Source: Pseudomonadota bacterium | Lineage (GTDB): Bacteria > Pseudomonadota > Alphaproteobacteria > UBA828 | Direction: 5' to 3' | Assembly: GCA_027624955.1 (NCBI GenBank) | Contig: JAQBTG010000003.1 | Coordinates: 87,163 to 151,162, forward strand | Length of the DNA: 64,000 bases | In this document: positions 12,953 through 33,702 of the stretch, piece after piece | Position numbering within the stretch: position 1 is the stretch's first letter | How the letters are laid out: every line of letters starts with the position of its first letter | Notes under the pieces: generated by a model | Databases searched by the model: none | Told to the model about the DNA's origin: nothing | What the model saw: only the letters and a program-made list of their open reading frames with translations | Program-made: the position numbers and the translations under genes

Positions 12953-13621
12953 CTAGGTTACGGGCCCCTCAGGCGTCATGTGGATCATGGCGAACTGGCC
13001 GTAGCTATCAGTAAAATCGAGCGCGATGGCCGTGCTCGATTTTGTGGTGCCGCTGCCCATTTCGGCCTCGGTAAACTCGAAGCCTCCCGGCATGACAATC
13101 TGGGCGCGGTGCTCGTCGCCAGTGACTGGATTGCGAATCGGCGTGCCGTTCGATTGCACCAGACCCGGCACGTGCACCCGCGCCGTTCGCGCCGCAACAT
13201 CGATTTCAAAATCGATCACCTCGAACAGCGGTTCGTGGGTGGTGTCGATGACGCTGGCGAAAACATTGAACACCGTGGCGCCTGGCTCGCTGTGGTCACC
13301 GGTCTGAAGGGCCACAATTGCGTCGCGCTGCGCCGCGTCGGCGCGCACATCAATAATATTCTGCTTTTCGCCGCCGCCCTCATGCACCGCTCCCGGCCAA
13401 GCATAAAGGGTTATCCAATTGAGGCCGTCCAATCGCACATCGCCGAAATAGCCCTCGTAGATATGCATCACTGCCATGCCCCGGCAATCGCCATATGTCG
13501 GCAGGGAGTTAAACTGGCACGGGCAGCCCCAGGCGCAATTGCAGCTGCCAAATTCCGGACCTTTGATGCGCCAATCCGTGTAGTCCTTGGCGCCGTTGCT
13601 TTGTCTTGTTTTCTGCGTCAT
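12953..13621 (-). CDS. DUF1326 protein, copy 2
   Basis: DUF1326 proteins are soluble, of unknown function and carry an N-terminal Cys cluster. Counting from ATG 13621, the cysteines are C27, C29, C33, C35 (CNCAWGCPC) and C46. I prefer this start over ATG 13633 because it gives an ATGA overlap with the upstream paralogue. The pattern CxC-x3-CxC plus a fifth Cys suggests binding of a soft metal or a redox role, which is an inference. The rest is beta-rich with no signal peptide. It is a diverged tandem duplicate of the next gene upstream. Confidence 0.8.
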   Translation of the reverse strand: MTQKTRQSNGAKDYTDWRIKGPEFGSCNCAWGCPCQFNSLPTYGDCRGMAVMHIYEGYFGDVRLDGLNWITLYAWPGAVHEGGGEKQNIIDVRADAAQRDAIVALQTGDHSEPGATVFNVFASVIDTTHEPLFEVIDFEIDVAARTARVHVPGLVQSNGTPIRNPVTGDEHRAQIVMPGGFEFTEAEMGSGTTKSSTAIALDFTDSYGQFAMIHMTPEGPVT

Positions 13622-14241
13622 GCCGCGGCCCATTCAAATGGTGCGAAATGGCCATTGTGCCCGCCCTCATCGTCGTCCCAGTTGATGCCGAATGCATGCA
13701 TGTGGCTCTTAGTTCCTGTTGCCAGAGCGAGCCGCTTACTCGCCGGGTGCGCGGTATTATCAATGAAGATCGGCACGTTTGGGTCATGCGCGTTTGGCGT
13801 GCCCACCGCCGCATTTTCAAACAGCGCCCCGGCCTTAACGCTGAACGACATAGCCTGTTTGTCGATCTCGATGGCGGCGCGCTCAATGCCAGCAAAATTG
13901 CCGACCAGGGCTGCGGCCAATTCCATCGGGCCGCCAACATCGCCGGAACAAATTTGCCCAACGGCATCGACCTGCGCGTCACTCGCCTTGTCGTCAATGA
14001 TTAGCCCGACGGTCCAGTCGCCGTTTGCCATTGGGCCCTCGACCGAGATGGCGATGATAAAGGCGACACCGTCGAGATCGATATCGCCGAAATTCCCATC
14101 GTTAATTCGCATCACGATGGCGGCAATGCAGATGTCATGAGTCGGCTGCGCCTGCATGTTGGTATAGATGCAAGGGCAGAGATAATCGCAATTGCAGGTC
14201 TCAAAATAATCGCCGGTAATCTGCCAGCTTGTCCCAGCCAT
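13618..14241 (-). CDS. DUF1326 protein, copy 1
   Basis: This 207-residue paralogue of the following gene has the same N-terminal layout: C16, C18, C22, C24 (CNCDYLCPC) and C38. ATG 14241 is preceded by GGGAG at five bases, a strong ribosome-binding site, so I reject the longer frame starting at 14283. The stop overlaps the start of copy 2. Outside the Cys cluster the two copies are clearly divergent, which suggests a heteromeric pair or two substrates and not a recent duplication. Confidence 0.82.
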   Translation of the reverse strand: MAGTSWQITGDYFETCNCDYLCPCIYTNMQAQPTHDICIAAIVMRINDGNFGDIDLDGVAFIIAISVEGPMANGDWTVGLIIDDKASDAQVDAVGQICSGDVGGPMELAAALVGNFAGIERAAIEIDKQAMSFSVKAGALFENAAVGTPNAHDPNVPIFIDNTAHPASKRLALATGTKSHMHAFGINWDDDEGGHNGHFAPFEWAAA

Positions 14242-14301
14242 GTTGCTCCCCCATCCGTTTCGCTCTTGACTAACACCCAGCATGATCGCCCTTGGGCGAT
14301 C

Positions 14302-19165: not shown

Positions 19166-19768
19166 CTACCAGCCGCCAGTCTCGAGCCATCTGTCGAGAT
19201 GGTCCATGCGATCGCAGCCCCAAAATTGCTGGTCGCCATAGATGAAGAACGGCGCGCCAAAGACGCCCTTGTCGAGTGCCGCTTCGACTGCGCTACGGAG
19301 CCGCGCTTTGACGTCGCCATCTTGCAAGGCGGCAGTGACGGCGTCTTTGTCGATGCCGAGCGATATGGCAGTTTCAACCACGATGTCGGCCTCACCGAGA
19401 TTGCGGTTGTCGACGAAATAGCCGCGGTAGAGTGCTTGCGCCAATTGTTTGGCCCGCGCCGGGTCGGAAGCTTCAAGCCAGTAATAAGCGCGGCAGGCGG
19501 CCAAGCTGTTGACCGGAAAAGGGTCGGGAATATTGAAGGGGATACCGTAGAGACGCGCCGAGCGCGCCAGGTCGTGGCGCGAATAGGGTCCTTTGACGGG
19601 CTGCGAAATCAACGGGCTGGTGCCGAGCTGTTTGAACACCGCGCCCATCAGGTAGGGCCGCCAAATGACTTCACAATTGTGCTTCGCGGCGAGCGCGTCG
19701 ATACGTTCTGAGCCGAGATAGGCGTAAGGCGAGGAAAAGTCGAAATAGAAATCGATGGCTTGCGGCAT
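19166..19768 (-). CDS. 2-hydroxychromene-2-carboxylate isomerase / DsbA-like (kappa-GST) family protein
   Basis: From ATG 19768 (preceded by AAGAGAG) the protein has 200 residues and starts with the thioredoxin-fold signature FYFDFSSPYAYLG, where S12 replaces the redox Cys and would activate glutathione as in the chromene-carboxylate isomerases. A GAPFFIYGDQQFWGCDRMD motif near the C-terminus is also standard. Members isomerise aromatic catabolic intermediates or act as glutathione transferases. It is the last gene after an acyl-CoA dehydrogenase, without other aromatic genes, so the substrate is open. Confidence 0.85.
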   Translation of the reverse strand: MPQAIDFYFDFSSPYAYLGSERIDALAAKHNCEVIWRPYLMGAVFKQLGTSPLISQPVKGPYSRHDLARSARLYGIPFNIPDPFPVNSLAACRAYYWLEASDPARAKQLAQALYRGYFVDNRNLGEADIVVETAISLGIDKDAVTAALQDGDVKARLRSAVEAALDKGVFGAPFFIYGDQQFWGCDRMDHLDRWLETGGW

Positions 19769-19793: not shown

Positions 19794-20948
19794 TTACTCC
19801 GCCGCGATGGCGCGCCCGATGACGATGCGCTGCACGTCGCTGGTGCCTTCGTAAATCTGACACACCTTGACGTCGCGCCAGTAGCGTTCGACCGGGAAGT
19901 CATTGAGGTAGCCATAGCCGCCTAACGTCTGGATGGCGTTTGAGCACACCCGCTCGGCCATTTCTGAGGCATAGAGCTTTGCCATGCTCGCTTCTTTGAT
20001 GCACGGCAGGCCGGCATCACTCAGGCGCGCCGCATGATGCGTCAACAGCCGCGCTGCTTCGATCTCGGTCGCCATGTCGGCGAGGCGGAAACTCACCGCC
20101 TGATGTTCGATGATCGGCTTGCCGAAGGTCTCGCGTTCCTTGGCATAGGCGAGCGCCGCTTCATAAGCCGCGCGCGCGGCACCCAATGCCTGCGACGCGA
20201 TGGCAATACGCCCGCTTTCAAGATTCGACAGCGCGATGCGATAGCCCTGCCCTGGCTCGCCCAGCATCAAATCCGGCGTCAGGCGGATATCCTCGAAAAC
20301 CAACTGGGCAGTGTCATGCGCCCTCTGGCCGAGCTTTTCCTCAACCTTGAGCACCGTAAAGCCCGGCATATCGGTCGGCACAACAAAACAGCTCAACCCC
20401 TTTTTGCCGGCGTCCGGGTCGGTCACGGCGATGATCAAAGCCACATCTGCCTTAGCGCCATTGGTGATGAATTGCTTGGAGCCGTTGAGAATAAAGGAAT
20501 TTCCGTCCAGCACCGCGCGCGTGCGCAGGGCCGAAGCATCCGAGCCGGTATGTGGCTCGGTGAGGCCGAACGCGCCCAGCATATCGCCCTGTGCGAGAGG
20601 CTTTAAAAACCGGTCTTTCTGGTCCTCAGAGCCAAAGCCGGCCAACCCGGAGCAAACAAGCGAATTGTTGACGCTCATCGCCGAGGCAGTGCCGACATCG
20701 CCGGCGGAGATTTCCTCCATCGCCAACGCATAGGAAAGATGACCAGCCTCTGCGCCGCCATATTCTTCCGGCACCAGCATGCCCATCAGACCGAGCGCAC
20801 CCATGCGCTTGTACATATCTTTCGGAAAGCCGCCGTTCCGGTCCCACTCGGCGGCATGAGGCGCCAACTCGCGAGCGGCGAAATCGCGCGCCATGTCGCG
20901 AATCATGCCTTGTTCTTCGGTCAGAAATAGGCGGCCGTCTGCTGGCAT
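19794..20948 (-). CDS. Acyl-CoA dehydrogenase (short/branched-chain type)
   Basis: An FAD-dependent dehydrogenase of 384 residues (from ATG 20948) that introduces a trans-2 double bond in acyl-CoAs and passes electrons to ETF. The family motifs LTEPHTGSDAS and IYEGTSDVQRIVIGR are present. The catalytic Glu sits in IYEGTSD, as in short-chain and general acyl-CoA dehydrogenases. It differs in this respect from the isovaleryl-CoA dehydrogenase in the same operon. It follows the DUF1989 gene by 14 bases. Isobutyryl- or 2-methylbutyryl-CoA would fit the context, which is an inference. Confidence 0.9.
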   Translation of the reverse strand: MPADGRLFLTEEQGMIRDMARDFAARELAPHAAEWDRNGGFPKDMYKRMGALGLMGMLVPEEYGGAEAGHLSYALAMEEISAGDVGTASAMSVNNSLVCSGLAGFGSEDQKDRFLKPLAQGDMLGAFGLTEPHTGSDASALRTRAVLDGNSFILNGSKQFITNGAKADVALIIAVTDPDAGKKGLSCFVVPTDMPGFTVLKVEEKLGQRAHDTAQLVFEDIRLTPDLMLGEPGQGYRIALSNLESGRIAIASQALGAARAAYEAALAYAKERETFGKPIIEHQAVSFRLADMATEIEAARLLTHHAARLSDAGLPCIKEASMAKLYASEMAERVCSNAIQTLGGYGYLNDFPVERYWRDVKVCQIYEGTSDVQRIVIGRAIAAE

Positions 20949-20962
20949 TGCGGGCTCTCCAA

Positions 20963-21565
20963 TCAGGATAGAATTTCGAAGTGACAATCCTTCGGCACGC
21001 AGTCTGTGCCGTTGATCGGGATCATGTCCTGCGGGCAACAGGAGAACACCACCATGACGTCGCGCTCAGCGCGCAGCACAACGTGATCTCCCGGGCGGCT
21101 TACCGGCGGCTCGAAACTGACCGATCCGTCCGCCGCAACGGGGATGTTCATCCACATATTCCACGGCGCCGGGGTCTCCGGTGGCACCATGCCCAATTCG
21201 CCGAGCGCCGCGGCGAGATTGTCGGTGCAGCTATCGTGATGGCCTTTGCAACCAAGTTTTTCATAGCGGTAGCGGTCGCAGGCAGCGATCAGCGTGTCAT
21301 GAATGCCGGGCGAGCTATCCTCAACAAGAGTCAGGATAGGCTCGCGTCGGTTGCTCACCATGGTGTCGCCAACATGAGGGAAAATGCCGCCGATGGCGGT
21401 ACGGCTATGTTCCATGGACATGAATTCGCTCAAATCGGAAACACTGAAGGCCCAGGTGTCGACCACTTGGGAGCCATGCGTATTGATCAACTTGATGCTT
21501 TGCCCAGTGTCCAGCCGCACGGCTTTGCCGAGGCGTGCCGGTATCGTGACCCGAGTCGCGCTCAT
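20963..21565 (-). CDS. DUF1989 (urea carboxylase-associated) family protein
   Basis: The 200-residue protein belongs to the DUF1989 family, whose members often sit beside urea carboxylase or transporters. Recognisable stretches are VVDTWAFSVSDLSEFMSMEHSR-like, GCKGHHDSCTDNL, PAPWNMWMNI and VFSCCPQDMIPING. Conserved His and Cys positions (HHDSC, CCPQD) suggest a metal site. Here it overlaps the thiolase stop as TAATG and lies within an acyl-CoA operon, with no urea genes in the window. That points to a role unrelated to urea, but the function is unknown. Confidence 0.82.
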   Translation of the reverse strand: MSATRVTIPARLGKAVRLDTGQSIKLINTHGSQVVDTWAFSVSDLSEFMSMEHSRTAIGGIFPHVGDTMVSNRREPILTLVEDSSPGIHDTLIAACDRYRYEKLGCKGHHDSCTDNLAAALGELGMVPPETPAPWNMWMNIPVAADGSVSFEPPVSRPGDHVVLRAERDVMVVFSCCPQDMIPINGTDCVPKDCHFEILS

Positions 21566-22752
21566 TAGTGCACGCGCTCGACGGCGATGGCGGTCGCTTC
21601 GCCGCCGCCGATGCAGAGCGCGGCGAGCCCTTTATCCTCGCCATATTTCTCCATCGCCGCCAACAGGGTGACGATCAGGCGCGCGCCCGAGGCGCCAATC
21701 GGGTGACCGAGGGCACAGGCGCCGCCATGCACGTTGACTTTGTCATGCGGGATGTCGCAATCGCGCATCGCCGCCATGGTGACGACGGCAAACGCCTCGT
21801 TGATTTCGAACAGCCCGACGTCGTCCTTCTGCCAGCCCACTTTATCCAAAAGGTTGGCTATCGCCGGCCCCGGCGCCGTGGTGAACCAGGCCGGCTCATG
21901 CGCATGGGTGGCGTGGCCGCGAATAATGCCAAGCGGAGTCAGGCCGCGCTTCTCGGCCTCGGAGCGGCGCATCAAAACAAGCGCCGCGGCACCATCGGAA
22001 ATTGAACTCGAATTGGCCGCCGTCACCGAGCCGTCCTTGGCAAAGGCCGGGCGAAGTTGCGGGATTTTCTCGAGATTGGCCTTGGGCGGCTGCTCGTCCT
22101 GTGTGATCTCTGTCTCGCCTTTGCGTGACTTGACGGTTACCGGCGCGACTTCGCTGTCGAACGAGCCATCTTCGATGGCGGTGCGGGCTCGTTTGAGCGA
22201 GGTAATCGCGAACTCGTCCTGCTGCTCGCGGGTGAATTGGTATTTTTGCGCCGTCGCTTCAGCAAACACGCCCATCAAGGTGCCTTTGTCATAGGCGTCT
22301 TCAAGACCGTCCAAGAACATATGGTCTTTCACCTCGCCGTGCCCCATGCGATAGCCCTGGCGCGCACGGTCGAGCAGATAGGGCGCCTGGCTCATATTCT
22401 CCATGCCGCCCGCCACCATGATGTTGTTGGCGCCGGCGGTAATCAGGTCATGCGCGAGCATCGCTGCTTTCATGCCCGAGCCGCACATCTTGTTGATCGT
22501 GGTGCAGCCGACAGACTGCGGGATGCCACCGCCGATGGAGGCTTGCCGGGCCGGCGCCTGGCCCTGCCCGGCTGAAAGAATGTTTCCCATGATGACCTCA
22601 TCGACATCGCTGCCGGCGAGCCCGGCGCGCGCCAATGCCGCTCGGATTGCAACAGCGCCCAATTCTGACGCCGTGACATTCTGCAAATCGCCCTGAAATC
22701 CGCCCATGGGTGTGCGCGCCATGCCGACAATAACGATGGGATCGTCATTCAT
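21565..22752 (-). CDS. Acetyl-CoA C-acetyltransferase (thiolase)
   Basis: A 395-residue thiolase that condenses two acetyl-CoA or cleaves acetoacetyl-CoA. The acyl-accepting Cys is C90 in NKMCGSGMKA; the NEAFA, GHPIGASGAR and CIGGGEATA motifs complete the active site. The biosynthetic/degradative type cannot be separated by sequence here. As the first gene of a thiolase-DUF1989-acyl-CoA dehydrogenase-isomerase operon beside isovaleryl-CoA dehydrogenase, it plausibly finishes leucine/isoleucine breakdown. Three palindrome-like sites lie just upstream. Confidence 0.92.
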   Translation of the reverse strand: MNDDPIVIVGMARTPMGGFQGDLQNVTASELGAVAIRAALARAGLAGSDVDEVIMGNILSAGQGQAPARQASIGGGIPQSVGCTTINKMCGSGMKAAMLAHDLITAGANNIMVAGGMENMSQAPYLLDRARQGYRMGHGEVKDHMFLDGLEDAYDKGTLMGVFAEATAQKYQFTREQQDEFAITSLKRARTAIEDGSFDSEVAPVTVKSRKGETEITQDEQPPKANLEKIPQLRPAFAKDGSVTAANSSSISDGAAALVLMRRSEAEKRGLTPLGIIRGHATHAHEPAWFTTAPGPAIANLLDKVGWQKDDVGLFEINEAFAVVTMAAMRDCDIPHDKVNVHGGACALGHPIGASGARLIVTLLAAMEKYGEDKGLAALCIGGGEATAIAVERVH

Positions 22753-22799
22753 TTTGAAATCCTCTCTATTGCAGACCGCCTACCGGTCCATTTGGGCAT

Positions 22800-22879
22800 A
22801 TTCTATTATTTTGCAATTGCGAAATCCAGGTGAGCTTAGGTGTGCAATCGCAATAAATTAATTTATCTGTGCAATTGCA
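22800..22879 (-). promoter_or_regulatory. Triple TGCAATYGCR operator-like array before the thiolase operon
   Basis: Three near-identical dyad sites occur in the 132-base gap: 22812-22821 (TGCAATTGCG), 22843-22852 (TGCAATCGCA) and 22870-22879 (TGCAATTGCA), 31 and 27 bases apart. Between the last two is the perfect 14-base palindrome ATAAATTAATTTAT (22853-22866). A -10-like TAGAAT (minus strand, 22800-22805) directly abuts the first site. The arrangement resembles a repressor array. The TGC-gap-GCA half-sites recall PhaR-type regulators of acyl/polyhydroxyalkanoate metabolism, from memory and unproven. Confidence 0.5.
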
Positions 22880-22884
22880 GCGAG

Positions 22885-24066
22885 TTAGATTGTGTCATTA
22901 AACAATTCTCTGCCGATCAACATGCGACGAATTTCGCTAGTACCGGCGCCTATTTCGTAAAGCTTGGCATCCCGTAGCAGACGGCCGGTGGGCGATTCGT
23001 TGATATAGCCGGTGCCGCCCAGCGCCTGTATCGCCTCAAGCGCCATCCAAGTCGCCTTCTCCGCAGCATAGAGAATAGCGCCGGCAGCATCCTTGCGACT
23101 TGTCTCGCCGCGGTCGCACGCCCGTGCCACGGTATACACATAGGCCCGGGCCGCATTCATGGTGGTATACATGTCGGCGAGTTTGCCCTGCATCAATTGA
23201 AATTCGCCGATCGGCTTGCCGAATTGCTTGCGCTCATGAACATAGGGCAGCACGACATCCATACAGGCCTGCATGATGCCGAGCGGGCCCGCAGCGAGCA
23301 CCGCGCGTTCATAATCCAGCCCGCTCATCAGCACGTTCACACCGTTGTTCAGCCCACCAAGGATATTCTCTTCCGGCACGTCGCAATCCTCGAACACCAA
23401 TTCGCAGGTGTTTGAGCCGCGCATACCGAGCTTGTCGAGTTTTTGCGCCGTCGAAAACCCGGCCATACCCTTCTCAATGAGAAACGCTGAGATACCTCGA
23501 CTACCGGCCTCTGGGTCGGTTTTGGCGTAGACCACCAGGACTTCAGAATCCGGCCCATTTGTGATCCACATCTTGCTACCGTTCAGCACGTATCGGCCGT
23601 CTTTCTTTACCGCCCGCGTGCTCATGCCGACAACGTCAGATCCGGCGCCGGTCTCGCTCATGGCAAGCGCGCCGACATTCTCGCCGGAAATCAGTTTGGG
23701 CAAATATTTTTGCTTTTGCGCGTCCGTTCCGTTGCGCCGGATTTGATTGACGCAGAGATTCGAATGGGCGCCGTAGCTGAGGCCGACCGAAGCCGACGCA
23801 CGGCTAATCTCCTCCATGGCGATGGTATGTTCGAGATATCCCAGGCCCGAGCCGCCAAGCTCCTCCTCCACGGTGATGCCCAATAGGCCGAGCTCGCCGA
23901 GGCGCGGCCAGAGATCGCGCGGAAACTCGTTGCTGCGGTCTATTTCCTCGGCGCGGGGGGCGATTTCCGTAGCAGAAAAGCTCTCCACCGTATCGCGGAT
24001 CATGTCGGCAGTTTCACCCAGGCCAAAATTAAGCCCGGGCCACCGATTGGGGATCATGTTCGCCAT
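22885..24066 (-). CDS. ivd: Isovaleryl-CoA dehydrogenase
   Basis: The FAD enzyme oxidises isovaleryl-CoA to 3-methylcrotonyl-CoA in leucine degradation. The 393-residue protein is highly typical. The catalytic Glu is in GLDYERAVL (E253), the position unique to isovaleryl-CoA dehydrogenases. [31 protein letters not shown] and [19 protein letters not shown] are also recognisable. Its product would feed the methylcrotonyl-CoA carboxylase encoded by mccB about 6 kb away. The 30-base gap to mgtE suggests possible read-through from that gene. Confidence 0.95.
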
Positions 24067-30149: not shown

Positions 30150-32144
30150 TTAGGCAAATTCCATGATCACTTGATCGACGCGGAGACTGTCGCCCTGGGC
30201 GACCTTGATATGCGCGACCACGCCATCGCGCTCGGCGCGCAGCACATTTTCCATTTTCATCGCGTCGACCACCGCGAGCGCCTGGCCAACGCGCACTTCA
30301 TCGCCCACATTGACGGCCAGAGAAACCATGAGGCCGGGCATCGGTGAGAGTAGAAAGCGCGAGAGGTCTGCGGGCTCACGTTTCGGTATGCGCGCCGCCA
30401 GTTCAGCCGCGCGCGGACTCTGCACTGTGATGTGCGCTTCCGCGCCGCGCCACGCCAAATGCAGGCGGGTGCCGCGTTGCGCCACCTGAACGGTGACTGC
30501 GGCGCCGTCCAATGCAGCGCAAAATATAGTTTCACCGGGCCGCCAATCGCTTTCGAGCAGCATTTCCCGGCCGTTCCAGGCGATCACCATAGCTGCGCCG
30601 GATGGGGTCCCGGATGGGGTCAATGTCACGGCGTGATCTTCCGCCTCAATGGACACGACCAGTTCCTCGGGTCCGGCAAAAGAGCGCTGACCAGTTTGGC
30701 CAGATATCTTTGCCCGACGCGCGCGCAAGCGATACTCGATCGCTGCGGCGACCGGCACCAGCACTGCCAATTCAGATTCGCCGGCCAGCGGTGTGAAGCC
30801 ATCGGGATATTCTTCTTCGATGAAGGCCGTGCTGAGTTCGCCTTTTGCAAAGCGCGGGTGACCCATGATGGCGGCAAGAAACGTCAAGTTGTTGGAAATG
30901 CCCTGTACTTGATACGCGTCTAGTGCTTCCAGCATGGTGGCGATGGCGCCGGCCCGGTCAGCCCCGTGACTGACCAGTTTTGCAATCATCGGATCGTAGT
31001 ACATCGAGATTTCGCCGCCCTCGAAGACGCCGCTATCGACCCGAACATTTGTGCTCGGCACCGGCTCGCGGTAGCGAACCAAGCGTCCAATTGACGGCAT
31101 GAAGCCACGCACCGGGTCTTCCGCGTAAAGCCGGCACTCCATTGCCCAGCCGTTCAGCTTTATGTCGCCCTGGGTTACAGCAAGTTTTTCACCGGCAGCG
31201 ACTTTGATCTGCTGTTCGACCAAGTCGATGCCGGTGACATATTCAGTAACCGGATGCTCAACCTGAAGGCGCGTATTCATCTCAAGAAAATAGAAATTGC
31301 GCTGTTGATCGGCGACGAACTCGACCGTCCCGGCGGAGACATAGCCCACCTCCCGCACCAGTGCGCAGGCCTGCTCTCCCATGGCTTGGCGTGTCGCGTC
31401 GTCAAGCAATGGGCTCGGCGCTTCCTCAATGATCTTCTGATGGCGGCGCTGAATGGAGCATTCGCGCTCACCGAGATGCACAATATTACCGTGGCTGTCG
31501 GCGAGAATTTGGATTTCTATGTGGCGCGGTTCCTCGATGAATTTCTCGATGAAAACGCGACCGTCGCCAAATGCCTGGCTAGCTTCGTGGATAGCCGAAG
31601 CGATGCTCTCGGCAAACATATCCGGTGAGGTCGCGACGCGCATGCCCTTGCCACCGCCGCCAGCTGCCGCCTTGATCATCACCGGATAGCCAATGCTCAG
31701 GGCAATCGCTTCTGCCTCTTCCCCGGCCTCAATCGCTTCGCTATGCCCGGGGATAATGTTGACACCGGCCTTCTGCGCTATTTTCTTGGCCGCGATCTTG
31801 TCGCCCATTGCGGCGATGGCTGCTGCCGGCGGGCCGATAAAAACAATGCCCTCCGCCGCCAAGCGCTCGGCAAAGTTGGGGTTCTCAGATAAGAAACCAT
31901 AGCCCGGATGTACCGCATCGGCGCCACTCTGCTTGGCCGCCGCGATAATCGTTTCGATCTTCAGATAGCTTTCGTTCGCCGCCGCCGGTCCGATCGCGAT
32001 GGCTTCATCGGCCTCGCGCATGTGCAGAGCACCATTATCGGCATCGGAATAAACCGCAACGCTGGCGATTCCCATCGCCCGCGCCGAACGAATAACGCGG
32101 CAGGCGATTTCGCCCCGGTTGGCAATCAGGATTTTTTTAAACAT
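30150..32144 (-). CDS. pccA: Propionyl-CoA carboxylase alpha subunit (biotin carboxylase + BCCP)
   Basis: The 664-residue subunit carboxylates its own biotin with ATP and bicarbonate. Residues 1-450 form the biotin carboxylase (KILIANRGEIACRV, the ATP-grasp loop AAGGGGKGMR, FIEEPRHIEIQ, FLEMNTRLQVEHPVTE). A middle region (about 500-585) is the subunit-interface domain. The C-terminus is a biotinyl domain with the biotin Lys in AMKMEN (K630). FIEEPRHIEIQ and the pccB neighbour favour propionyl-CoA over methylcrotonyl-CoA. It is the only biotin carboxylase in the window. Confidence 0.93.
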   Translation of the reverse strand: MFKKILIANRGEIACRVIRSARAMGIASVAVYSDADNGALHMREADEAIAIGPAAANESYLKIETIIAAAKQSGADAVHPGYGFLSENPNFAERLAAEGIVFIGPPAAAIAAMGDKIAAKKIAQKAGVNIIPGHSEAIEAGEEAEAIALSIGYPVMIKAAAGGGGKGMRVATSPDMFAESIASAIHEASQAFGDGRVFIEKFIEEPRHIEIQILADSHGNIVHLGERECSIQRRHQKIIEEAPSPLLDDATRQAMGEQACALVREVGYVSAGTVEFVADQQRNFYFLEMNTRLQVEHPVTEYVTGIDLVEQQIKVAAGEKLAVTQGDIKLNGWAMECRLYAEDPVRGFMPSIGRLVRYREPVPSTNVRVDSGVFEGGEISMYYDPMIAKLVSHGADRAGAIATMLEALDAYQVQGISNNLTFLAAIMGHPRFAKGELSTAFIEEEYPDGFTPLAGESELAVLVPVAAAIEYRLRARRAKISGQTGQRSFAGPEELVVSIEAEDHAVTLTPSGTPSGAAMVIAWNGREMLLESDWRPGETIFCAALDGAAVTVQVAQRGTRLHLAWRGAEAHITVQSPRAAELAARIPKREPADLSRFLLSPMPGLMVSLAVNVGDEVRVGQALAVVDAMKMENVLRAERDGVVAHIKVAQGDSLRVDQVIMEFA

Positions 32145-32169
32145 AGGCGTGACGCCGTTCTCTTATTAG

Positions 32170-33702
32170 TTAGAGCGGAATATTGCCGTGTTTTTTCCAC
32201 GGATTTTCGAGCTTCTTATTGCGTAGCATGGCGAAGGCGCGGCCCAGGCGCCGGCGTGTATTATGCGGCATGATAATGTCGTCGATATATCCGCGATGGG
32301 CTGCGATGAACGGGTTTGCGAACTTGTTGCGGTATTCTTCTGTCTGGCGCTCCACCGCCTCGGGATCATCCAGCGCGCCGCGGAAGATGATTTCGACCGC
32401 GCCCTTCGAGCCCATAACGGCGATTTCGGCGGTTGGCCAAGCATAGTTGACGTCGCCTCTGAGATGCTTGGAACTCATCACGTCATAGGCGCCGCCATAG
32501 GCTTTGCGGGTGATCAACGTGACCTTGGGCACCGTCGCCTCGGCATAGGCATAAAGCAGTTTTGAGCCATGGGTGATAATGCCGTTATGCTCTTGATCGG
32601 TGCCCGGCAGGAAGCCCGGCACATCGACCAGGGTGAGAATTGGAATGTTGAAGCAATCACAAAATCGGACGAATCGTGCGGCTTTCCGCGACGAGGCGAT
32701 ATCGAGGCAGCCGGCCAGAACCATGGGCTGATTAGCGACGATGCCGATTGTCGCGCCGCCCATGCGGGCGAAGCCGGTGATGATGTTTTGTGCATGATTT
32801 GGCTTGGTTTCGAAAAAATCGCCTTCATCGGTGATCTTTCCAATCAGCTCCTTCATATCATAGGGTTTTTGCGGATCGGCCGGGATCAACGTGTCGAGCG
32901 ATGGATCGGGGCGATCGATCGGATCTTCGCTCGGCCATGTCGGCGCTTGCTCGCGGTTGGAGGCCGGCAGAAAGTCGATAAAACGGCGCACTTCGGCGAG
33001 CGTCTCCACATCGTCACCAAATGCCCGGTCGGCAACGCCGGAAGTGGCTGTATGGGTGATGGCGCCGCCCAATTCCTCATGGCTGACTTGTTCATGGGTG
33101 ACGGTTTTCACCACGTCGGGGCCGGTGACGAACATGTAGGAACTGTTTTCGACCATGAAGATAAAGTCGGTCATCGCCGGAGAATAGACCGCCCCACCGG
33201 CGCATGGCCCCATGACTACGGAAATTTGCGGCACCACGCCGGAGGCCAACACGTTGCGCTGAAATACTTCGGCATAGCCGCCAAGTGAGGCAACGCCCTC
33301 ATGGATGCGCGCGCCGCCGGAATCGTTAAGCCCGATCACCGGCGCGCCGACTTTCATCGCCTGATCCATGATCTTGCATATCTTTTCGGCATGGGCTTCG
33401 CTGAGCGAGCCACCAAAGACTGTGAAGTCCTGGCTGAACACAAAGACCAGCCGCCCGTTCACGGTTCCGTGGCCGGTCACGACACCGTCACCAGGGATGA
33501 CGCTGTCGGCCATGCCGAAATCGCTGCAGCGATGCTCGACGAACATGTCATATTCCTCGAACGATCCGCTATCGAGCAGCAGTTCCAACCTTTCGCGCGC
33601 CGTTAGTTTGCCCTTCGCATGCTGCGCGGCAATGCGTTTTTCGCCGCCGCCTTGGCGCGCCGCTGCCCGCTTTTCCTCCAATTGCCGGATGATATCCTGC
33701 AT
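32170..33702 (-). CDS. pccB: Propionyl-CoA carboxylase beta (carboxyltransferase) subunit
   Basis: The 510-residue subunit transfers CO2 from biotin to propionyl-CoA, giving methylmalonyl-CoA. The N- and C-terminal carboxyltransferase halves are complete: [65 protein letters not shown] and [11 protein letters not shown]. It sits 25 bases upstream of pccA. Methylmalonyl-CoA epimerase and mutase, needed to reach succinyl-CoA, are not in the window. Confidence 0.94.

Follow-up and report, generated by a model that had tools for sequence, protein, structure and literature searches.

In the window (the whole stretch of 64,000 nucleotides that was analysed), two minus-strand genes, for an acyl-CoA dehydrogenase (22885-24066) and for a thiolase (21565-22752), are separated by a region with three copies of the decamer TGCAATYGCR. 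These are TGCAATTGCG at 22812-22821, TGCAATCGCA at 22843-22852 and TGCAATTGCA at 22870-22879, spaced by 31 and 27 bp, and they are accompanied by ATAAATTAATTTAT at 22853-22866, a perfect 14-bp AT palindrome. The three dyads with their two spacings and the palindrome had been reported in an initial annotation of this DNA, and all were recovered in place. The features of the region, from upstream to downstream of the thiolase operon, are the following.

22885-24066, minus strand: acyl-CoA dehydrogenase (isovaleryl-type by context; PF00441, PF02770, PF02771), ending just upstream of the operator region
22867-22882, minus strand: third dyad, with core TGCAATTGCA, 27 bp upstream of M; present in this genome only
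22853-22866, no strand: AT palindrome ATAAATTAATTTAT; absent from relatives
22840-22855, minus strand: predicted operator M, with core TGCGATTGCA, 31 bp upstream of P; arms and spacing kept in 5/5 species of the genus
22823-22828, minus strand: putative -35 hexamer TGGATT; invariant in 5/5 species and in the sister-genus genome G008
22809-22824, minus strand: predicted operator P, promoter-proximal, TTTCGCAATTGCAAAA on the minus strand; arms kept in 5/5 species of the genus and also in G008
22800-22805, minus strand: putative -10 hexamer TAGAAT, 17 bp from TGGATT; TAGAAT, TAAGAT or TATAAT within the genus
21565-22752, minus strand: acetyl-CoA C-acetyltransferase (thiolase; PF00108, PF02803), first gene of the operon
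20963-21565, minus strand: DUF1989 (urea amidolyase-associated-like) protein (PF09347), second gene
19794-20960, minus strand: acyl-CoA dehydrogenase (PF00441, PF02770, PF02771; ORF listed from 21038), third gene
19166-19768, minus strand: DSBA-fold (2-hydroxychromene-2-carboxylate isomerase-like) protein (PF01323), probable fourth gene

The thiolase has NF005404 as its nearest NCBIfam model, with a score under the cut-off of that model, and it is the sole homologue at E<1e-100 in the window's genome. On the minus strand, TGGATT and TAGAAT stand 17 bp apart, and dyad P occupies this spacer. The TAGAAT hexamer had initially been described as abutting a dyad; its place is in fact on the minus strand (22805-22800), separated by 6 bp from the decamer and by 3 bp from the 16-bp dyad. 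Because both hexamers are conserved but weak, and the TGGATT/TAGAAT promoter was not called in a consensus promoter scan, their assignment as -35 and -10 elements is to be taken as putative. In the sister genus g6, the thiolase promoters carry TGGATA, 17 bp from TATGTA.

In simulations of the 64-kb window under a dinucleotide Markov model, TGCAATYGCR was expected 2.0 times on average, and three decamers within 132 bp were obtained in 0 of 300 runs (Poisson probability about 1.5e-5), which bears out the original impression of an order beyond chance. As a motif, the decamer fared less well. When up to one mismatch was allowed, the window contained 31 matches for 42 expected, i.e. no enrichment, and most of its 54 matches across the genome (strands counted separately) were uninformative.

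The upstream regions of thiolase orthologues were then compared among relatives, with a genus set made of the window's genome (G000) and G001 to G004. In these five species, the P block TGGATTTCGCA-NN-TGCA is kept, as is the M block TTGC(A/G)-NN-TGC (CTGC in one of them), and the distance between P and M is exactly 31 bp in all five, while the intervening sequence and the two centre bases vary. In G008, the first site is kept and the second is shortened. The conservation in relatives that had been named as a check of the sites was thus found for P and M. As for the third dyad, the 27-bp spacing and the AT palindrome, they were absent from the orthologous promoters compared and occur only in the window's genome; the observation is therefore reduced to two operators, P and M. 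Of the multi-site regulator first envisaged, two sites at a fixed 31-bp spacing remain, and the three-site phasing was rejected. The AT palindrome is probably incidental, judging by its lack of conservation.

The comparison also corrected the consensus. The central AT of TGCAATYGCR is not conserved and the arms are, so the decamer was rejected in favour of TTTYGCA-NN-TGCRAAA, a 16-bp inverted repeat with a free two-base centre. Over the thiolase and methylmalonyl-CoA mutase (mcm) sites, the arms are constant around centres as different as AT, CT, AG, TC, CC, GT, AC and GC. Both marks of a repressor operator, an overlap with the core promoter and arms evolving more slowly than the centre, are present here, and P and M are conserved sites predicted to bind a regulator.

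A position weight matrix built from the sites was scanned over 2.29 Mb (64%) of the window's genome. The only comparable second match was found in the mcm promoter; the two top scores were 27.2 and 25.9, the next being 18.6. The mcm promoter reads TTGACC-17-CATAAT, followed at once by TTTTGCAGTTGCGAAA, a dyad identical to P in 15 of 16 letters, the exception being one centre base. A search of all 3.58 Mb of the genome with the strict pattern TTTYGCANNTGCRAAA gave two places, thiolase P and mcm, for about 0.03 expected from base composition, and 0 with the reversed control. The mcm dyad is kept, with a variable centre, in G001, G004 and G005 of the genus, and is also present in five genomes of other genera and families (G006, G007, G021, G022 and G028), as well as before mcm in Magnetovibrio blakemorei and in one Rhodospirillaceae MAG. 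Most mcm loci of the 80 named genomes are without it, and it is lost in G003. In the mcm promoter of the latter (L216), the start codon follows almost directly after the -10 (CATAATTTTTTAATG), as if by deletion, and the transcript may be leaderless.

Among 387 alphaproteobacterial genomes, the pattern TTTYGCANNTGCGAAA was matched in 72, while its reversed control matched about a dozen. In four genera of family f36 (G055, G166, G313 and G374), the dyad lies 143-155 bp before the first electron-transfer-flavoprotein gene match, and in G055 it is found again 77 bp before a phaA-type thiolase adjoining phaC. In the window's genome, a weaker version, TTGTTGCGAATGCGAAA, stands before etfB (L191). 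Some of the class-wide matches, e.g. those near glpD in one genus, may belong to unrelated regulators; for the matches of family f39, a GlpR-like regulator was considered on account of L258, which lies upstream of glpD. The proposal of a regulated acyl-CoA catabolism is supported by the recurrence of the dyad at mcm in several families and, in f36, at etfBA and the phaA-type thiolase. The companion suggestion to look for the site upstream of mcc and pcc found no counterpart in the window, where the dyad was not seen at the pccB, pccA, mcc or ivd promoters. A propionyl-CoA carboxylase-like pair at 30150-33702 on the minus strand (an alpha subunit with a PCC_BT domain and a carboxyltransferase) is without a dyad upstream.

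These comparisons bear on another explanation, namely that the repeats are a by-product of a promoter element and AT-rich intergenic drift, with no regulator involved. The lack of conservation of the third dyad and the AT palindrome, together with the absence of decamer enrichment in the window, would fit such an origin. It is opposed by symmetric arms kept round variable centres, by the fixed 31-bp spacing, by the presence of the same 16-mer at mcm and by its recurrence at etfB in another family. A chance origin is unlikely for P and M, and we give this explanation as a whole very little weight.

The regulator PhaR, a PHB-responsive repressor, deserves closer attention. The thiolase dyads could be PhaR boxes with a two-base centre, the thiolase being co-controlled with phasin and PHB synthesis genes and the mcm dyad belonging to another regulator. 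A phaR gene is present in the window's genome (PF07879 match on contig C20). When the comparison was confined to family genomes more than 85% complete whose thiolase promoter is whole and whose upstream gene is unchanged, the thiolase dyads were absent exactly where PhaR was not found, in G005, G009 and G012, the first of which is also without phasin. Furthermore, thiolase P is asymmetric in relatives (TTTCGCANNTGCARCA), and its right arm, TGCARCAT, is the PhaR half-site of phasin promoters. The thiolase promoter of g6 carries TGCTGCAGTGCAGCA, a textbook PhaR box, and the PhaR motif on record is TGC-rich (PMC10888616).

The geometry of the sites argues against this assignment. PhaR boxes at phasin and phaR in the genus all have a one-base centre, as does the S. 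meliloti consensus YGCRNYGCR (PMC12542648), whereas in nearly all genomes two bases form the centre of the conserved dyads at thiolase and mcm, the shortened M of G008 excepted. In addition, the mcm dyad, to which the window's P is identical in 15 of 16 letters, is kept perfect in G005, where no phaR is detectable; as this genome is only 86% complete, the absence of PhaR from it is uncertain. Within the family, the thiolase sites track PhaR, and the mcm site, to judge from this one genome, would not. Given the one-base PhaR centres and the mcm dyad of G005, PhaR was rejected as the sole regulator, and the link to PhaR contained in the initial annotation is not supported as a general answer. 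As an explanation of the thiolase promoter only, PhaR is still the main rival, and we regard it as rather improbable. Features shared with the PhaR/AniA regulon are TGC-rich inverted repeats over -35/-10, a setting in acetyl-CoA and PHB metabolism and a PhaR-type box at the g6 orthologues of the thiolase. The present system differs from it by the two-base centre, the outer arm TTTYGCA, the mcm and etfBA targets and a site in a genome without detectable phaR.

Several observations were made on PhaR sites themselves. The phasin promoters of the genus (L110-L114, from G000-G004; L112 is that of the window's genome) contain two to three PhaR boxes TTGCASTGCAACA with a one-base centre, one of which ends at the -10 hexamer. 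In the g6 thiolase promoters (L010-L016 and L018), a TGCTGCAGTGCAGCA-type palindrome is found near the transcription start and the TTCGC..GCA block is mostly decayed, so that a regulator swap is possible there. Between phaR and phaC, many alphaproteobacterial families (L061-L090) have TTTGCGCAATGCAGCA in common; in the genus, it adjoins a GCAGCAATTGCTGC palindrome that is perfect in three species. The apparent lack of phaR in G005, G009 and G012 (and of phasin in G005), along with AT-rich intergenic DNA in at least the two g5 genomes among them, suggests a repeated loss of PHB storage.

A regulator of the ScfR family (PccR/PrpR/RamB type) was the other obvious candidate. Members of this family sense short-chain acyl-CoA and control propionyl-CoA genes in other bacteria (PMC6765138, PMC12632250), PccR in particular controlling propionyl-CoA carboxylase genes (PMC12632250), and the ScfR boxes are TTTGC(A/G)AA (PMC6765138). 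Most of the family has ScfR, and a truncated match lies at a contig end of the window's genome. The likeness to PccR, PrpR/MccR and RamB extends to the control of propionyl-CoA and acetyl-CoA assimilation and to TTYGCAAA-like letters in the boxes. The distribution of the gene is not that of the site. Three genomes of 92-100% completeness (G166, G313 and G374) possess the etfB dyad and no ScfR (PF09856), and G001 and G021 have the mcm dyad with no ScfR match. Conversely, the 3-kb loci around scfR in those f1 genomes that encode a full ScfR contain no strong dyad. The geometry differs as well: ScfR sites are pairs of separate 8-bp boxes, and no paired TTTGC(A/G)AA boxes as defined in PMC6765138 were found at the dyads, which are single 16-bp inverted repeats with a free centre. 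Finally, PccR is an activator, while the positions observed here fit repression. Since G166, G313 and G374 carry the etf site without ScfR, ScfR as a general regulator is contradicted, and we consider binding of the sites by a member of this family highly improbable.

PhaR and ScfR, the two obvious regulators, therefore do not explain the motif as a whole. The LiuR, PsrA and FadP regulons, which serve the degradation of branched-chain amino acids and of fatty acids (PMC5343134), belong to the same pathway area. The motifs of these three regulators are not known to resemble TTTYGCANNTGCRAAA.

The reading that we favour, and that we hold to be probable, is that P and M form the operator region of the thiolase/acyl-CoA dehydrogenase operon and are bound by a dimeric regulator recognising TTTYGCA-NN-TGCRAAA. 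A dimer would be expected from the symmetry of the site, two inverted arms over 16 bp around a free centre of two bases. At the thiolase promoter, P would be the main operator, placed between -35 and -10, where a bound dimer or a cooperative pair would exclude RNA polymerase. The 31 bp from P up to M amount to three helical turns, which would presumably place M on the same face of the DNA, an arrangement that could allow cooperative binding. At mcm, the same operator would act from directly behind the -10. As the operator is located in the thiolase spacer in one case and right after the mcm -10 in the other, both positions would suit a repressor. The predicted targets, thiolase, acyl-CoA dehydrogenase, methylmalonyl-CoA mutase and, in other families, etfBA, suggest an acyl-CoA as the inducer, which is the natural guess from such genes. 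Between them, they would supply the thiolytic step, an acyl-CoA dehydrogenase, the carrier that takes up electrons from such dehydrogenases and the route by which propionyl-CoA leaves. The scans brought up no gene for the regulator: no transcription factor was found among the Pfam-scanned genes of the window, and no transcription-factor gene bearing the dyad was found in 2.29 Mb (64%) of the window's genome.

The two thiolase sites are conserved, the mcm site is nearly identical and the motif recurs at etf, so the dyads would mark a small uncharacterised circuit for the breakdown of short acyl-CoA. On a wider scale, it is conceivable, and we propose it only tentatively, that an undescribed factor, neither PhaR nor ScfR, recognises TTTYGCANNTGCRAAA in several alphaproteobacterial families; thiolase, methylmalonyl-CoA mutase and electron-transfer flavoprotein would make up the small core of its regulon, and entry into short-chain acyl-CoA oxidation would thereby be coupled to the exit from it. 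Conserved operators that serve a small regulon are already a known kind of thing. In the literature searched (open papers), no match was found for a motif of the dyad form with its target set. The predicted regulon is small and testable, and it would link the thiolysis of acetoacetyl-CoA with the disposal of propionyl-CoA and with the transfer of electrons from acyl-CoA dehydrogenases. The motif gives the search for the regulator a concrete footing in a field, the balance of carbon storage and short-chain acyl-CoA oxidation, where usually only PhaR and ScfR are considered.

Two minor observations concern other occurrences of the motifs. In G030 (L260, position 1501), the strict dyad TTTCGCATTTGCGAAA stands directly after the stop codon of a TetR-type gene, beside a phasin-like gene, and could be either an operator or a terminator stem. 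In the window, the two other exact decamers are TGCAATTGCG matches at 13534 and 14187, which fall in the coding sequences of a Cys-rich protein and of its neighbour, respectively. These neighbouring, related Cys-rich ORFs on the minus strand (12953-13633 and 13618-14283), with the motifs ETCNCDYLCPC and GSCNCAWGCPC, adjoin a copper chaperone-type gene (PF09948) and look like a candidate duplicated DUF1326-type pair.
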